Shown piece after piece: positions 7,067 through 37,959 of a stretch of DNA of 52,622 nucleotides (the stretch's first letter is position 1; each line of letters starts with the position of its first letter). The notes under the pieces were generated by a model. It worked only from the letters and a program-made list of their open reading frames with translations, was not told the DNA's origin and searched no databases. Source of the stretch: Candidatus Sulfopaludibacter sp. SbA3. Lineage in GTDB: Bacteria; Acidobacteriota; Terriglobia; 20CM-2-55-15. The stretch spans positions 1 to 52,622 of the forward strand of contig CAMBFR010000015.1 in the NCBI GenBank assembly GCA_945865815.1, given 5' to 3'. Both the position numbers and the translations under genes were made by a program.

Positions 7067-7955
7067 TGCGGCTTCCAGGATGGCCCAGCACCGAGCGAAG
7101 ATTGCCTCCGGCTTCGGCCAGCCGTGTTGCGGCTTCCTTGCGATTGCAGCCAACTGCGCTCATCGCAACAGCTACTTTCAATTTGCCGCCTGCGGCATTA
7201 AGCAGCCGCGTTGCTTCGTCTTTGTTTATTCCAAGGATTTCCTGGAGGATATGGATGCCGCGGCCGCGTAGTTTGCGATTCGTCATCGCCACATTGATCA
7301 TCCAGTTGCTGTAGGTCATGCCGAGACGGATCATTGTGGCCGTGCTGATCATATTCAGTACCATTTTCTGGGCAGTCCCGGCCTTGAGACGAGTGGACCC
7401 GGTGATCACTTCCGGGCCAACGTCAACGCAAACCGAAATATCAGCCACCTTCGCCATGGGCGCGGCCGGCGCACAGACGATCGCGGCGATTACGGCCCCT
7501 TTGCTCTTTGCAAAATCCAGCGCGGCCTTCGTGTAAGGCGTAGCGCCGCTGGCCGAGACCCCGATGACGATGTCCTTTGGTGTGATTCTTTTGGATTTCA
7601 GGTCGGCTGCTGCCTGCTGCTTGTCGTCTTCCGACCCTTCCTGTGCCTTGTTGAACGCTTTCGCACCGCCTGCGAGCACTGCCTGGACCCATCCGGGCGG
7701 GGCACTGAATGTCGCCGGAATTTCCGCGGCGTCGAGGACAGCCAGGCGCCCGCTGGTACCCGCACCGGCGTAGATGATCCGGCCACCAGACCGGATACTC
7801 TTCACGGCCGCTTCAACCACAGCCGCGATGTCTGAAATCACGGCTGCAACGGCGGCCGCGACCTGCGCGTCCTCGTTGTTGATTGTTCTTAGAATGCGTT
7901 CCGTGGCAAAGAGGTCAATGTCGATACTGCGCGGGTTCCGTCTTTCAGTGCTCAT
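7059..7955 (-). CDS. murQ: N-acetylmuramic acid 6-phosphate etherase
   Basis: MurQ removes D-lactate from MurNAc-6-P to give GlcNAc-6-P during cell-wall recycling. The 298 residues carry an SIS fold with GAGTSGRLAVLDAAEIPATF (general-acid Glu within AAEIP) and the second acidic site KAQEGSEDD. The C-terminal helical part (EILGINKDEATRLL) is also as in the family. First gene of a murQ-nagA-murA operon. No MurNAc kinase (amgK/anmK/murK) or PTS transporter lies in this window, so the source of MurNAc-6-P must be encoded elsewhere. No strong Shine-Dalgarno is visible. Confidence 0.95.
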   Translation of the reverse strand: MSTERRNPRSIDIDLFATERILRTINNEDAQVAAAVAAVISDIAAVVEAAVKSIRSGGRIIYAGAGTSGRLAVLDAAEIPATFSAPPGWVQAVLAGGAKAFNKAQEGSEDDKQQAAADLKSKRITPKDIVIGVSASGATPYTKAALDFAKSKGAVIAAIVCAPAAPMAKVADISVCVDVGPEVITGSTRLKAGTAQKMVLNMISTATMIRLGMTYSNWMINVAMTNRKLRGRGIHILQEILGINKDEATRLLNAAGGKLKVAVAMSAVGCNRKEAATRLAEAGGNLRSVLGHPGSRSE

Positions 7956-8020
7956 GACAATCGAGGCGCAGATGGTGTCCGGCTTGTAAACTCCATGGCT
8001 TTTGTATTCTATTGGTGGTC

Positions 8021-8830
8021 ATGACAGAAGTCGATGTCGCGATCCGGCGCGCATCCGGGATTGAAGACTATTTGGCTGCAGTGGAACTTCAGAGGAAAGT
8101 CTGGGGCGACGACGCTCAGGTTGCAACTTTACCAATGCTGTTGCTGGCAAACAAATTCGGCGGATGTGTGCTTGTGGCGCAATCCCCTGAAGGTTTGATC
8201 GGTTTCTCGTTCGCAATGCTCGCGAAGGAAGCCGGGGAGTCCTTTTGGTGGTCTCATATGACCGCCATCCGGGAAGGCTATCGGAACAGGAATATCGGAT
8301 GGCGGCTGAAGTTGAAGCAGAGGGAAGAGGCGCTCGCCGGCAGCATCGAGAGGATCTGCTGGACCTTCGATCCGCTCCAGGCGGTTAATGGGCACTTCAA
8401 CATCCGCAAGCTGGGAGTGATGGTTCGCAAGTACGAGAGCAATATTTACGGAGTGTCCGGCAGCCCGCTGCACCGTGGCCTGCCCACCGACCGCCTCATT
8501 GCCGAATGGAATTTGAACTCCGAAAGAGTTCGAGAAAGACTTGGAACGGGCGAGCCGCCGCTTATCCTGCGCGACCTGGATCGTATTTCGCGAATCAACA
8601 GCGCCGACCACGAACCGAACCTGAGCCTGACCGATGATGTCCTGCTGCTCGAGGCGCCGAGTGATGTGACCGTTTTAAAGCAGGCGGATTTGGAACGCGC
8701 CCGGAGATGGCAGCAGACCATTCGGACTGCGGCTCAACATTATTTCGCTGCCGGCTATTCCATTACCGACTTCGTTCTCCTGGACCGTCTGCCGCCGCAG
8801 GCTTTTTATGTGTTCGAGAGGAACGGGTGA
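8021..8830 (+). CDS. GNAT-like acetyltransferase family protein (COG3375 type)
   Basis: About 269 residues, from the ATG at 8021 (a TTG at 8012 is an alternative). The N-terminal half is GNAT-like: VELQRKVWGDD, SPEGLIGFSFAML, then the acetyl-CoA loop region MTAIREGYRNRNIGWRLKLKQRE. It continues with ICWTFDPLQAVNGHFNIRKLGV, characteristic of the predicted-acetyltransferase family COG3375. The substrate is unknown. It is divergent from murQ across 65 bases, so the two may share a regulatory region. The C-terminal half resembles no fold I recognise. Confidence 0.75.
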   Translation: MTEVDVAIRRASGIEDYLAAVELQRKVWGDDAQVATLPMLLLANKFGGCVLVAQSPEGLIGFSFAMLAKEAGESFWWSHMTAIREGYRNRNIGWRLKLKQREEALAGSIERICWTFDPLQAVNGHFNIRKLGVMVRKYESNIYGVSGSPLHRGLPTDRLIAEWNLNSERVRERLGTGEPPLILRDLDRISRINSADHEPNLSLTDDVLLLEAPSDVTVLKQADLERARRWQQTIRTAAQHYFAAGYSITDFVLLDRLPPQAFYVFERNG

Positions 8831-8838
8831 TCGCGCCT

Positions 8839-10209
8839 TTAATTCGCCGGTTTGTTCAGCCGGACTTCGGTGCCGTAGTAATCCAGGGTTAGCTGGTAGT
8901 CCTGAAGGAAGTCGTACCCCACCACACCGGAAAGCTCCGTACCCAGCATTTTGGAGATCTGCTTGAGGTCGATCGAGACCACCTGGGCGAATTGTTCCGA
9001 ACGATTCGGGGTCTTGAGTGTCACATTCGGCACGCGAAGAACGACGCCCTCGAATCCGCCGACGCCGACGATTCCCAGGTCGACCCTGGCGCCCGGCGTA
9101 TTCTCGTTCACGCCCAACTTCGACGCCATGCTGTGCGAGAGGACGGTCGTAACGGCGCCGGTATCGACGATGAAGTTGCCCCGGTAGCCGTTAACTTCAA
9201 GTGGGATAAGAAGCAGATTGCTGAAGTACCAGGCAGGCAACGTCTCCGACGAAGCGCCGGCCGCCGGCTTCGTGCGGGACAGCTCCAATTGATTTTCCGG
9301 GTAATTGATGGTGATTATGAAATCCGAGAGGATGGCGGTTCCGAGAATTCCATCGGCAAGTTGACTAAGAAGCGGATCGCCAAATGTTCCCGCGGGCACA
9401 TTCTTGATCTTCAGGTCGCCGATCGCGATCTCGTCGAGACGGTACATCTTCGACTCGATTTTTCCGGATCCGCCAATGCCATGCATTATGGTTGTAGTAA
9501 TCGGCTCGAGACCCAGGTCGGTGGCGAGTTTCTGGCTCAATACGGTTTGCGTGGCGCCGGTATCGATGGCGAAATTGTAGGGTCCCCTTCCATTTATCAT
9601 GATGCTCGAAAAGATGAGATTCAGGGTTTTCCTGAAACGCAGGGGTGAAGGGGCTTCCGGGCCTTCCACGCGGGCGATTTCTTCGGCGGCAAAGGCATCA
9701 ATCATCTCGATGCCCGCCTTGGCTTCCGCCAGCCGGTCCGCATCGTACGCCGGGTTCAGCCGGACATACTCTTCGAGGTGTCTGCGCTGCTCCGCGTAGT
9801 TCTTTTGGACCGCGTACGCCTCGCTCGCGTAGAGACGGAACAAGGGAAGCTTTGGATCCAGTTCGATGGCCCGTGTTATCGCCGTAACGGCCTGGTCGCC
9901 TTTGAGTTTCGCAATCGCTAGTTTCGCCAGCCCCAGGTGAGCGCGGGCCGTGTTGGTGTCCGCGCGAAGGGCTTCGTCATACAGGGCCTCCGCTTTATCG
10001 AAATTCCCTTTTCTATACTCTATTTCTCCCCGCAGCGCTGTTGTCAGCGGCGTCCTGGGTTGCCGGTCAAGAAGGAGTTCGGCCTGTTCAACTTCATCGC
10101 GAAGCAAAAGGTCGCTGACGGAATCCGGATTTATGCTCTGAATCGAGCCGCCTGGGAGTATCAAAAAGGAGGTTAATGCCATCAAAACAACGAGCGGGCT
10201 GCTTGACAT
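8839..10209 (-). CDS. TPR protein with two retropepsin-like aspartyl protease domains
   Basis: From the ATG at 10209 (AGGGAG ten bases upstream) the protein has 456 residues. A signal peptide or membrane anchor (SSSPLVVLMALTSFLILPGG) is followed by TPR-like helices (about 35-150). Two retropepsin-like domains come next, with catalytic FAIDTGATQTVLS (Asp216) and FIVDTGAVTTVLS (Asp349). Each is followed by the ILG or GVVG strand of the family. Retropepsins work as dimers of one Asp each, so two domains in one chain may form an internal pseudo-dimer. The location is probably periplasmic. Residues 1-3 overlap the -35 box of the divergent rplM promoter. Substrate unknown. Confidence 0.85.
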   Translation of the reverse strand: MSSSPLVVLMALTSFLILPGGSIQSINPDSVSDLLLRDEVEQAELLLDRQPRTPLTTALRGEIEYRKGNFDKAEALYDEALRADTNTARAHLGLAKLAIAKLKGDQAVTAITRAIELDPKLPLFRLYASEAYAVQKNYAEQRRHLEEYVRLNPAYDADRLAEAKAGIEMIDAFAAEEIARVEGPEAPSPLRFRKTLNLIFSSIMINGRGPYNFAIDTGATQTVLSQKLATDLGLEPITTTIMHGIGGSGKIESKMYRLDEIAIGDLKIKNVPAGTFGDPLLSQLADGILGTAILSDFIITINYPENQLELSRTKPAAGASSETLPAWYFSNLLLIPLEVNGYRGNFIVDTGAVTTVLSHSMASKLGVNENTPGARVDLGIVGVGGFEGVVLRVPNVTLKTPNRSEQFAQVVSIDLKQISKMLGTELSGVVGYDFLQDYQLTLDYYGTEVRLNKPAN

Positions 10210-33250: not shown

Positions 33251-34387
33251 TCACCGACGGCCGCTCAGCAGATCCAGGCTTATTGCCGGGATCGAGAAAA
33301 ACAGCTTCTTCTTCAGTCCCACATACGATTGGTTTCCCGCGATCAGATTTCCGAGGATTCCTTTCAGCGTGCGGCTGCGAATCGAGAGCTGGATCGTCCT
33401 TTTCCTGAAATCCCCACCAAAAAACCGTCCGCGGTAAAACCGCCGGTACATGCGGGAAGCGCGCATAAGCTCGCGCCCGAGGTCCGCCATGACTTTCGAG
33501 GGGTACTGCTCCGGAGATTCGATCGTAGTCGCCAGAATTTCCGCCGACCTCAACGCAGAGTAAATCCCTTCTCCCGTTATCGGATCGGCAAGGCCCGCAG
33601 CGTCACCGACCAGGGCCCATCGTTCGCCGGAAATCTGGTTCTTTTGCCAGGAGCGGGCACTTAAGCAGGGTACGGGAGCGCTGTAGAACTCGCCATTCTC
33701 GATAGCGTCGGGCCCGAGTTCCGCAGTGATGAAGTTCGAAAGAAGCATTTTTGCCCGTGCCGTCCAGCCCGGTTCGGTGCGTGTGATCAGGCCATAGGAG
33801 ATGTGATTCGAGCGTGGAAAGGACCAGATGTATCCCTCGAAGGATGGTATGAAATAGATCTTCATGGTCGGTGGAACATTGCCGGGAATGAAGTACCCGA
33901 GCGTCATGCAGAGGTCCTCGGGAGCGATCGGAGTTCCGAGCGTGCGCCGCACATAGCTGGTGGCTCCATCCGCGCCGATGAGGTACTGTGCGTGGAGTTC
34001 CGAGTTCTGGAGTGGAATCTTCCAGCCGTCAGGGACGGCGTCAATATGGTTAATTCGATGCTTTACGAATGTCACCCCGGCCTTCACCGCTTCATCCAGC
34101 AGATATTTGCTGAAGTCACGCCGCGAAACCACAGCGATCGGTTGCTGGGGCTCAACGCTGACATTGGTCTTATCGCCGAAGTAGATCGTGATCTTGTCGA
34201 TGTGTCTCCTGGGCAGCTCCGATTCAAGAACTGCGCACGCCGCGAGGGCCTTCGAGGTCACACCTCCTCCACAGGGCTTTTCCCATGGAGCCTGCGGATC
34301 GATGAGCGTGACGGAATGACCGCGTTTGGCGAGAAGAATCGACGCCCACGTTCCGGCCGGGCCCGCTCCGACAACGGCAATTCTCAT
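33251..34387 (-). CDS. Geranylgeranyl-reductase-family FAD-dependent oxidoreductase
   Basis: A 378-residue flavoprotein with FAD loop VVGAGPAGTWAS (5-16), the family motif PCGGGVTSKAL (about 38), and GDAAGLADPITGEGIYSALRSAEI for FAD phosphate/ribitol binding. These are typical of enzymes that saturate isoprenoid chains (ChlP, archaeal GGR, MenJ). Next to the menaquinone genes mqnA-mqnC, a role in partial reduction of the menaquinone side chain is inferred. No recognisable Shine-Dalgarno precedes its ATG. Instead the stop of a short upstream ORF (34455-34384) overlaps the start as ATGA, so translation may depend on that ORF. Confidence 0.82.
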   Translation of the reverse strand: MRIAVVGAGPAGTWASILLAKRGHSVTLIDPQAPWEKPCGGGVTSKALAACAVLESELPRRHIDKITIYFGDKTNVSVEPQQPIAVVSRRDFSKYLLDEAVKAGVTFVKHRINHIDAVPDGWKIPLQNSELHAQYLIGADGATSYVRRTLGTPIAPEDLCMTLGYFIPGNVPPTMKIYFIPSFEGYIWSFPRSNHISYGLITRTEPGWTARAKMLLSNFITAELGPDAIENGEFYSAPVPCLSARSWQKNQISGERWALVGDAAGLADPITGEGIYSALRSAEILATTIESPEQYPSKVMADLGRELMRASRMYRRFYRGRFFGGDFRKRTIQLSIRSRTLKGILGNLIAGNQSYVGLKKKLFFSIPAISLDLLSGRR

Positions 34388-34455
34388 AACGAGGAGATAA
34401 ACGTCCCTTTTCTTGCTGGCTGCGCCCTATCGGGCTTGCATTCGCAGCCGCTCAT
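34384..34455 (-). repeat. Dispersed MSGCECKPD element, copy A (putative leader peptide ORF)
   Basis: Twenty-three sense codons from ATG 34455 encode a peptide beginning MSGCECKPDRAQPARK. Its stop TGA overlaps the flavoprotein ATG (shared ATGA, 34387-34384). The repeated DNA begins exactly at the ATG in all three copies. Relative to copy B it has a synonymous GGC/GGA change and one Ala/Ser change. GCCC-GATA-GGGC can form a small hairpin. It may be a translated leader or a mobile palindrome. No strong Shine-Dalgarno is visible upstream. Confidence 0.5.
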
Positions 34456-34494
34456 GGTCCAGAAAAGCGTCTATGCTACCAGAGGCTTGAACAA

Positions 34495-35040
34495 ATGATC
34501 GAAGAAACCCGACGAGCCATTCCAGCCGATCATCCCATTCGCCAACTGTTCCGTGAATTGACTGAGCGCGGGATGAACCAGCTCAACCTTCGCGACGCCG
34601 ATACCATCCAGTATCTTTCGGATTTGTTGACGCAGTTTGTTCAGATCGAAAACATGTATCGAATCGAGGATGAGTCCGGCCGGCGTCTCCAGTACCTCGT
34701 GGACATACTCGAGCAGGCGAGCCGCGAGCCTTCACCGGCGATCCGCCGCGATTACTACAAACATCTCGGCGATCTTACACTGTTCAACCTCGGTCTCTTT
34801 CCCGAAAGCCTCACCTATGGACGGCGTACCGTCAGTCCCGATTTTTACGCGCAACAGGGCCGGCGGTCTTACAACATCGTTGCGGAGATGCAGCCGGCAG
34901 CGGGATCCACGGCTGTTTATCGAAAATTGTCGGAACAGTTCGAGCAGTGTGTTGCCGGCCTGCACTGGGTGAAGCTATACATCAACGACCCTTTCTACCA
35001 ATACATGTTCAGGCAGTTCGAGATCACTCGCACATGCTAG
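34495..35040 (+). CDS. Conserved helical protein of unknown function beside mqnA
   Basis: Not recognised. 181 residues, no signal peptide or membrane helix, predicted mostly alpha-helical: HPIRQLFRELTERGMNQLNLRDADTIQYLSDLLTQFVQIENMY, RRDYYKHLGDLTLFNLGLFPESL, YGRRTVSPDFYAQQGRRSYNIVAE. The middle segment with His, Asp, Tyr and Arg clusters looks like a functional core rather than a structural linker. It is divergent from the flavoprotein and 12 bases before mqnA on the same strand, so a role linked to menaquinone or the flavoprotein is a guess from context. Confidence 0.75.
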   Translation: MIEETRRAIPADHPIRQLFRELTERGMNQLNLRDADTIQYLSDLLTQFVQIENMYRIEDESGRRLQYLVDILEQASREPSPAIRRDYYKHLGDLTLFNLGLFPESLTYGRRTVSPDFYAQQGRRSYNIVAEMQPAAGSTAVYRKLSEQFEQCVAGLHWVKLYINDPFYQYMFRQFEITRTC

Positions 35041-35052
35041 AATTACGCCCCT

Positions 35053-35898
35053 GTGGCGAAAAACAGAATTTCTGTAGTCAAGTACCTCAATGCCGTCCCC
35101 CTGGCTTGGGGAATCCTGGAAGGGTCCCAAAAAGAGAGTTTCGATCCGGTACTCAGCACTCCTGCCGAGTGTGCGGATGAGCTGTCGCGCGGTACCGTCG
35201 ACCTGGGGCTGATTCCTGCGATCGAATACCAGCGGATCAAAGGATCGCGGATTGTACCGGGGCCGGTTGTCGCTTCGTCCCATCGGGTCCGGAGCGTCAT
35301 CCTCATCAGCGTACTGCCACTGTGGCAAGTCAAAACGGTCGCTTTCGACAAGGGATCGAGAACTTCCGTCGCGTTGGCGCGGATCATTTTTAACGATTTT
35401 TACCGAATCCGTCCCGACTTCCGGCCGGCCGAGCCGGATGTCACCAATATGCTGGCAACCAGCGATGCGGCGCTCCTCATCGGGGACCACGCCCTGAAGT
35501 TCACCGAAACCCATCGGCTGCCGAATGCGGAACTGCAGAAGGGACTCCTTCGTCACGGCGCGGAGCCTCTGCAGGTCTTCGATCTGATGGAGCGCTGGAA
35601 ATTCCTCACTGGGCTTCCGTTTGTGTTCGCCTTCTGGGCAGCGCGTGAAGGATTCAAGGACGCCACCGTCATCGACCGGTTGAAACAGTCCCGCGACTTC
35701 GGCGTAGCGAATATTTCTGTGATAGCAGAGAAATATGCGGAGTCCCTGGCCCTTCCGAAGGATTCGCTCGAAAAGTACCTGCGGGAGAACGTGAATTATT
35801 ATATGGACGCCAAATGCGTCGAAGGGGTGAACCTCTTCTTCGAGAAAGCAGCGTCAATCGGCGCGATCAAATCGGCGCGGCCGCTCGAGTTCCTATGA
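35053..35898 (+). CDS. mqnA: Chorismate dehydratase (futalosine menaquinone pathway)
   Basis: MqnA converts chorismate to 3-enolpyruvyl-benzoate, the first step of the futalosine route to menaquinone. The 281 residues have a periplasmic-binding-protein-like fold: ISVVKYLNAVPLAWGI, DLGLIPAIEYQRI, VALARIIFNDFY and DAALLIGDHAL are family segments. It starts with GTG 12 bases after the preceding gene and overlaps mqnC by ATGA. mqnB and mqnD are not in the window. Confidence 0.94.
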   Translation: MAKNRISVVKYLNAVPLAWGILEGSQKESFDPVLSTPAECADELSRGTVDLGLIPAIEYQRIKGSRIVPGPVVASSHRVRSVILISVLPLWQVKTVAFDKGSRTSVALARIIFNDFYRIRPDFRPAEPDVTNMLATSDAALLIGDHALKFTETHRLPNAELQKGLLRHGAEPLQVFDLMERWKFLTGLPFVFAFWAAREGFKDATVIDRLKQSRDFGVANISVIAEKYAESLALPKDSLEKYLRENVNYYMDAKCVEGVNLFFEKAASIGAIKSARPLEFL

Positions 35899-36986
35899 GA
35901 AGCGTTGAAGAAATTCTGGAGTCCAGGGTTGCCAATGTCGCTAATGTTGAAGGCAGCCGGATCGGTTTCGAAGAGGCCATCCGGCTCTTTGAAGAGGCCG
36001 ATCTCCTGGAACTTGCTTCGGCTGCCGATCGCATACGCGAGCAGCTGCATCCCGATAACGTTATCAGCTACATCATCGATCGGAACATCAACTACACGAA
36101 CGTCTGCAGGGAATTCTGTTCGTTCTGCGCGTTCTATCGCGTAAAAGGCGACTCCGAAGCGTACGTCCTGCCCAACGAGCTCATCTACAAGAAAATCGAA
36201 GAGACGCTCGCGCTCGGCGGCACCGGAATTCTGATGCAGGGAGGAGTGCATCCGGACCTGAAGATCGATTACTACGAAGACCTGCTTTCGAATATAAAAC
36301 AGCGGTTCAAAATTCATTGCCATTGCTTTTCCCCTCCGGAGATCCTGAATATCGCGCGCGTATCGAAGCTGACGGTCGCGGAAACATTCGGCCGTTTGCA
36401 TGCGGCGGGTCTCGATTCCATGCCTGGCGGCGGCGGCGAAATTCTCGATGACGAAATCCGCAACGACATCAGTCCGCTCAAATGCAAAACCGAGGAATGG
36501 CTGATGGTCCATCGTGAAGCGCACCGTCTCGGAGTGCGCACAACTGCCACAATGATGACCGGCGTCGGCGAGGCCATTCATCACCGCATTCGCCACCTTC
36601 AGCGGCTCCGCGACCTGCAGGATGAAACGGGCGGCTTCACGGCGTTCATTCCGTGGACATTCCAACCCGAGAACACGCCTCTGGGGGAACGCAACCTGCC
36701 CGAAGTTACGGCCGCCGAGTACCTGCGCATGCTGGCATTGAGCCGCCTCTTTCTGGACAATGTTTCGAATGTCCAGGTGTCGTGGCTGACCGTGGGACTC
36801 AAGATCGGCCAGGTTGGCTTGCGATTCGGAGTCAATGATATGGGCAGCATCATGATCGAGGAAAACGTCATCAGCGCCGCCGGCGCAAAAAATCGCGCCA
36901 ATGACAGCGAACTGCGGAGAGTCATCCAGGACGCCGGCTTTATTCCACGCCAGCGCACCACCCTCTATGAGAGGTACGTCAACTAA
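35895..36986 (+). CDS. mqnC: Dehypoxanthinyl futalosine cyclase (radical SAM)
   Basis: MqnC closes the ring of dehypoxanthine futalosine in menaquinone synthesis. From ATG 35895 (363 residues), the radical-SAM cluster motif CREFCSFC places Cys71, Cys75 and Cys78, followed by AFYR. GGTGILMQGGVHPDLKIDYYEDLL and MPGGGGEILDDEIRNDISPLK are family segments that separate MqnC from MqnE. The overlap ATGA with mqnA implies coupled translation. Its end overlaps the next gene by 20 bases. Confidence 0.95.
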   Translation: MRSVEEILESRVANVANVEGSRIGFEEAIRLFEEADLLELASAADRIREQLHPDNVISYIIDRNINYTNVCREFCSFCAFYRVKGDSEAYVLPNELIYKKIEETLALGGTGILMQGGVHPDLKIDYYEDLLSNIKQRFKIHCHCFSPPEILNIARVSKLTVAETFGRLHAAGLDSMPGGGGEILDDEIRNDISPLKCKTEEWLMVHREAHRLGVRTTATMMTGVGEAIHHRIRHLQRLRDLQDETGGFTAFIPWTFQPENTPLGERNLPEVTAAEYLRMLALSRLFLDNVSNVQVSWLTVGLKIGQVGLRFGVNDMGSIMIEENVISAAGAKNRANDSELRRVIQDAGFIPRQRTTLYERYVN

Positions 36987-37959
36987 ATGGCCCAGATGGA
37001 AGGTGTTGATCGGCGCAGCGGCAGTTCTGCTGCTTTTCGTCTTCGTAAATAACACTTCCAGCTTTGCTCCCGCCATGACAGGCGCCGCAACGGTGCTCGT
37101 TCACCGTGGCATTGCGCAGCAGGTCGATTGGGACACGGTTGACGCAAGCGGCTGCATCGCCGATCAGATATTTCCGCCCACACACGAATATCTCGAAAAC
37201 ACGATCGCGTCGATGCGTGCCGCCTTTGACCGCGGCGCCACTGTCGTCGAGTTCGACATCCATAGCACGCGTGATCGGCAGTTTGCCGTGTTTCACGACC
37301 GCAGGCTCGAGTGCAGAACCGACGGGCAGGGTACGCCGCGCGATCACTCGCTGGAAGAGCTGCAGGCACTCGATATCGGCTATGGCTACACGCCCGATGG
37401 CGGCCGCACGTATCCGTTTCGTGGCAAGGGCGTCGGGCTCATGCCCTCCATCAAGGAGGTCTTTCAGACATTTCCCGGCAAATCTTTTCTAATCGACATA
37501 AAGGGCAATGATCCGACTGACGGGCGCCTGCTTGCCGGCGAGCTTTCCACGCTGGCGCCGGAACAGCGGTCCCGGCTCACGCTCTTCGGCCGTGGAAGTA
37601 CGCTCGAAGCGGTGCGGGAAGAACTTCCCGAAATACGCATGTTCTCGGTGGGGTCGATCGCAAATTGCCTCATTCGTTACATTGGATACGGATGGACAGG
37701 GATGGTGCCGGGCTCCTGCGAGAACGCGGCGCTCTTTGTTCCCGTGAACATTGCCCCCTGGCTCTGGGGTTGGCCCAATCTGTTTATGGATCGAATGAGA
37801 TCCAGCGGCAGTTCGATCGTCATGGTCGGAGCATTCAGGGGAGGCAACTTCTCGCGCGGACTGGATACGCTCGAGGATCTGGCTCGTCTGCCCCTCGACT
37901 TTGACGGCGGCATCTGGACGAACAATGTAGATCTGGCGACCTCCACTCTGAGAAGGTGA
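36967..37959 (+). CDS. Membrane-anchored glycerophosphodiester phosphodiesterase family protein
   Basis: 330 residues from ATG 36967. An uncleaved anchor or signal (about 12-28, VLIGAAAVLLLFVFV) precedes the GDPD TIM-barrel: VLVHRGIA (His46-Arg47), LENTIASM (Glu77-Asn78), VVEFDIHSTRDRQFAVFHDRRL (Glu95, Asp97, His110) and later SFLIDIKGND. All catalytic residues are present. GDPDs hydrolyse glycerophosphodiesters or lysophospholipids; periplasmic action is inferred. An insertion between HRG and EN (about 30 residues) is longer than usual. It overlaps mqnC but is functionally unrelated. Confidence 0.88.
   Translation: MRGTSTKWPRWKVLIGAAAVLLLFVFVNNTSSFAPAMTGAATVLVHRGIAQQVDWDTVDASGCIADQIFPPTHEYLENTIASMRAAFDRGATVVEFDIHSTRDRQFAVFHDRRLECRTDGQGTPRDHSLEELQALDIGYGYTPDGGRTYPFRGKGVGLMPSIKEVFQTFPGKSFLIDIKGNDPTDGRLLAGELSTLAPEQRSRLTLFGRGSTLEAVREELPEIRMFSVGSIANCLIRYIGYGWTGMVPGSCENAALFVPVNIAPWLWGWPNLFMDRMRSSGSSIVMVGAFRGGNFSRGLDTLEDLARLPLDFDGGIWTNNVDLATSTLRR

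Follow-up and report, generated by a model that had tools for sequence, protein, structure and literature searches.

A gyrA-linked mqnA-mqnC neighbourhood with a small helical protein and a divergent flavoprotein reductase in one acidobacterial family

The gene row downstream of gyrA

Here we describe a cluster of genes in a stretch of 52,622 nucleotides of DNA from a soil acidobacterium (the window), located just downstream of gyrB and gyrA; dnaN- and dnaA-like genes, named by reading, lie upstream of gyrB/gyrA in the window and in two related loci (L003 and L005). The original prediction had placed four open reading frames here, at 33251-34387, 34495-35040, 35053-35898 and 35814-36986, and had taken them for an isoprenoid reductase, an unrecognised protein and two futalosine-pathway genes. 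All four frames are present and the names were well chosen, with MqnC scoring above the cut-off of TIGR03699, MqnA above that of PF02621 and the reductase recognised by its superfamily motifs. The features are as follows.

33251-34387, minus strand: reductase, a geranylgeranyl-reductase-family FAD flavoprotein of 378 aa (TIGR02032, PF01494 and motifs)
34388-34494, no strand: 107-bp spacer separating the divergently read reductase and U181 genes (sequence)
34495-35040, plus strand: U181, an uncharacterised 181-aa ORF (coding signal) that would open a U181-mqnA-mqnC operon
35053-35898, plus strand: mqnA, chorismate dehydratase, 281 aa, GTG start (PF02621, match to 7ahr)
35895-36986, plus strand: mqnC, cyclic dehypoxanthinyl futalosine synthase (TIGR03699); the ORF opens at 35814

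The reductase is divergent from the U181-mqnA-mqnC row and stands outside it, and the 107-bp stretch between them presumably holds the promoters of both the reductase and U181. Only 12 bp separate U181 from mqnA, which suggests a single transcript and is in keeping with a true local tie; U181 is probably co-transcribed with mqnA and would lead the mqnA-mqnC operon. The ATG at 35895, which overlaps the mqnA stop codon as ATGA, is a likelier start of mqnC than 35814, giving a predicted protein of 363 aa instead of 390. The 3' end of mqnC is overlapped by an ORF for a glycerophosphodiester phosphodiesterase (36901-37959, plus strand; PF03009, 71 bits), which may be a further gene of the operon. 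The beginning of this ORF is also seen in L003, from the same genus, and was not found in the other family members examined.

MqnA converts chorismate to 3-enolpyruvylbenzoate, and MqnC carries out the radical-SAM cyclisation of dehypoxanthine futalosine. The window's MqnA scores 164.2 bits against PF02621 (gathering cut-off 26), and its best solved-structure matches are chorismate dehydratases (7ahr, E 1.4e-30); MqnC reaches 487.4 bits against TIGR03699 (equivalog cut-off 428.1). MqnE is encoded on another contig of the same genome (489.5 bits, over its cut-off), and a second PF02621 protein, which from a motif we take to be probably MqnD, is encoded elsewhere; the gene adjoining it specifies a radical-SAM/SPASM-like protein, named by reading (L001:2285-3505, minus strand). 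The genome also encodes CofH and CofG, both over their cut-offs (483.2 and 447.1 bits; L157, G000:C18:15000-32000, at 7734-9011 and 8962-10056, both on the minus strand), so it may make F0/F420, a capacity unrelated to the cluster. A 2014 survey gives MqnC in five of five acidobacterial proteomes (PMC3914697).

U181 and its association with the mqn genes

In the nearest relative the U181 protein is 88% identical, and the nucleotide differences at codon positions 1, 2 and 3 number 14, 11 and 52; their concentration at third positions, with the frame kept, indicates that U181 is a real gene. Identity is 86% in the MAG Candidatus Sulfopaludibacter sp. SbA3, the closest relative with a name in genome_contigs; this genus has been put forward for Acidobacteria of subdivision 3 (PMC6018796). 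Searches of Pfam, NCBIfam, PHROGs and PADLOC returned no model or notable match to U181, and a defence or phage function was set aside on the PADLOC and PHROGs results. PDB matches to eIF3a (0.02) and, with the U181 profile, to designed repeat proteins (0.003) were rejected as helical chance matches. The highest 19-residue hydropathy mean is 0.61, so there is no membrane helix, and an AlphaFold2 model built from eight sequences was helical at low confidence (mean pLDDT 50.3); U181 is probably small, all-helical and cytosolic. The residues invariant in 44 members (F19, D93, L96, G100 and G122) would give little sign of a metal-binding or catalytic site, and relatives in other Acidobacteriota have a common GD-x-x-LF-x-x-G and G-x-x-x-Y core. 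No relatives were found in viral contigs with the A1 profile, nor on plasmids with the window protein as query; a distant member as query gave two weak plasmid matches, from Paracoccus and Legionella. The copy in G376 (L049:1887-2369) is shortened to 161 aa and lacks a segment following roughly residue 55 which is present in the others, and in the relative from G140 (L053:3625-3939) an in-frame TAG interrupts the gene close to the end of a contig.

The distribution of U181 was followed in 396 Acidobacteriota genomes drawn from a larger group. Relatives were found in 38 of them with the A1 profile, and in 51 with the A2 profile, from which L053 was left out for its in-frame stop. PF02621 genes, of the MqnA/D family, occur in 307 of the 396: in 36 of the 38 U181 genomes versus 271 of the 358 others (one-sided Fisher p 0.003, uncorrected for kinship). 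Both U181 genomes without PF02621 (G334 and G368) belong to the most divergent U181 branch. All A1 matches less the window itself amounted to 38 loci in 37 genomes, with G338 contributing two and with L041-L043, which repeat L007-L009, counted once. Only one of these loci, L049, lies by mqn genes, and it comes from the window's own family; among the 37 loci from outside this family, none had a match to MqnA, MqnC or the reductase (E 1e-6, stretches of 3.7-16.5 kb, several of them short). In a tree of 44 U181 proteins the eight mqn-linked rows form one side of a branch with support 98/84, and the linkage requires a single change. Clustering of the neighbours of U181 loci and of reductase loci yielded locally conserved synteny only, and no recurring pathway.

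Within the window's order, represented by 11 genomes, MqnC is over its cut-off in all 11, U181 is present in 10 and the reductase in eight; the reductase is beside U181 in eight genomes and U181 beside mqnA in nine. The clustering that had been noticed from the sequence is therefore real and kept in the order, since nine of the 10 U181 carriers have the gene next to mqnA and the tenth (G396) is split by contig ends, with one end falling between U181 and mqnA. In G398 the contig begins inside U181, so that only the end of the gene is visible beside mqnA, and no reductase match was found. The 99%-complete G403 has gyrA-mqnA-mqnC without U181 and without a reductase match at E 1e-20; the 85%-complete G404 has U181 and no reductase match. 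On these patterns gyrA-mqnA-mqnC is the core, with U181 and the reductase as optional additions. The absence of U181 from G403 could reflect secondary loss with replacement. The reductase match in L004 (the same locus as L152) falls in two pieces in different frames, at about 1523-1528, from either a frameshift or an assembly error.

The proposal that U181 is a new menaquinone factor is not supported by this comparison: the gene is not kept beside mqn across lineages, it is missing from a close relative that retains mqnA-mqnC, and MqnA/D-family genes occur without it in most of the phylum. The original prediction had also described the pattern that would speak against it, a U181 family found mainly away from the cluster and in genomes without futalosine genes. 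Its first half was borne out, at 37 of 38 loci, but the second was not, because 36 of the 38 U181 genomes carry PF02621.

The divergent reductase

The reductase scores 153.9 bits against TIGR02032, just under the cut-off of 158.8, which a relative (L143) passes with 163.5; it also matches PF01494 with 59.8 bits. The protein carries GAGPAG at residue 7, PCGGG at 38, YIWSFP at 186 and GDAAG at 261, and so combines an FAD motif with CGGG and YxWxFP, which we take to be the signature motifs of the geranylgeranyl reductase superfamily. Its structure prediction had a mean pLDDT of 36.2. The assignment as an FAD-dependent isoprenoid reductase is plausible. It is improbable that the protein is instead a monooxygenase or a halogenase. 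That identity is suggested by the top solved match by E-value, which is to a peptidyl tryptophan dihydroxylase (7ctq, 9.2e-12) and comes before that to the archaeal digeranylgeranylglycerophospholipid (DGGGPL) reductase 3oz2 (1.9e-11), and by a score of 104 bits with the QhpG monooxygenase model. The cut-off of that model is 240 bits, however, and CGGG and YxWxFP are found in the window protein and in all 21 relatives checked in other families. Furthermore, the alignment with 3oz2 runs through the CG-G and YIWxFP motifs, pairing YIWSFP with YIWVFP, whereas the alignment with 7ctq does not keep the motif.

Reductase matches at E 1e-20 occur in 75 of the 396 Acidobacteriota genomes. The loci examined for the reductase and for MqnC were high-scoring ones rather than a random draw; within these bounds, none of the 21 reductase loci outside the window's family had MqnA, MqnC, MqnD or U181, and none of the 29 mqnC loci outside it had U181 or the reductase in the 1.5-kb flanks. 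MqnC loci came from 149 genomes; of the best 30, the one in the window was alone in having either gene in its flanks.

A probable lineage-specific neighbourhood

The cluster is restricted to one family among the genomes sampled, and both of the neighbours of mqnA-mqnC are dispensable among relatives. We consider it most likely (probability about 0.82) that this is a gene neighbourhood particular to one lineage and situated behind gyrA, in which U181 and the reductase are not needed for the futalosine pathway generally. Both genes are missing beside the pathway genes of relatives, so that a general role in menaquinone synthesis seems unlikely for either. In this acidobacterial family the ancestral core would have been gyrA-mqnA-mqnC. 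MqnA and MqnC would do their ordinary futalosine-pathway jobs, with MqnE and the probable MqnD supplied from elsewhere in the genome. U181, whose small helical relatives make up a family widespread in Acidobacteriota, would have come to lie before mqnA once, and would there probably be co-transcribed with it. On the opposite strand, the reductase most likely hydrogenates a double bond in an isoprenoid chain with FADH2, as judged at the level of its family.

Judged from the neighbourhood alone, saturation of the menaquinone side chain is possible, and a fair guess given that the superfamily acts on many isoprenoids. The reading in which the enzyme saturates at least one isoprene unit of menaquinone as mycobacterial MenJ does, and works together with the mqn operon that diverges from it, is a tentative alternative that we regard as considerably less likely. 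It would account for the position of the reductase beside the U181-mqnAC row in eight of the 11 genomes and for its intact family motifs, and PMC9686282 describes MenJ as a reductase of the same superfamily that acts on menaquinone and was misnamed geranylgeranyl reductase in databases. Against it, the MenJ model NF045655 gives 58 bits where its equivalog cut-off is 700, relatives in other families are beside mqn genes at none of 21 loci, and strong relatives occur in six genomes that are all without a PF02621 match (G006, G022, G048, G274, G282 and G287). Also, other substrates are known in the superfamily, including the sterol side chain at C-24, on which Bsr acts according to PMC12004948. 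Beyond work on Geodermatophilaceae, we found no literature joining the futalosine pathway, geranylgeranyl reductase and menaquinone.

For U181, we think it unlikely that the protein is a true family-specific futalosine accessory, acting as a partner, stabiliser or regulator of MqnA/MqnC and recruited from a family otherwise employed. Its place at the head of the presumed operon, with 12 bp between it and mqnA, and the adjacency kept in nine of 10 carriers would fit such a role, but the 99%-complete sister genome G403 manages mqnA-mqnC without it, the G376 member has been shortened, and no other family has the mqn linkage. The combination of both ideas, in which a recruited U181 as MqnA/MqnC partner and the reductase together give a partly saturated menaquinone that sisters without both do not make, is likewise improbable. 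We prefer to see in U181 a protein that is not a core futalosine factor, with a dispensable local accessory role as a possibility.

This neighbourhood is a reminder that genes in a close and seemingly conserved row may suggest a false link, since sampling beyond the family breaks the link. It also supplies a natural contrast for comparing quinone chains, as close genomes carry mqnAC alone, mqnAC with U181, or mqnAC with both U181 and the reductase. Additionally, it brings to light in U181 a broad protein family without a curated model in the databases searched (Pfam, NCBIfam, PHROGs and PADLOC).

Set against known systems, the reductase shares the FAD domain, CGGG and YxWxFP with the geranylgeranyl reductase superfamily (TIGR02032; DGGGPL reductase, ChlP/BchP, MenJ and Bsr), but scores far under the cut-offs of the MenJ, ChlP and BchP models. 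U181 relatives elsewhere adjoin, by reading, thioesterase-like and queG-like genes, or rsmD-like and site-2-protease-like genes, and never mqn. The pairing of mqnA with mqnC is itself familiar, as MqnA matches lie no more than 1.5 kb away at 13 of the 29 mqnC loci of other acidobacterial families; what differs here is the placement of the pair after gyrA with U181 in front, an arrangement observed only in the window's own family.
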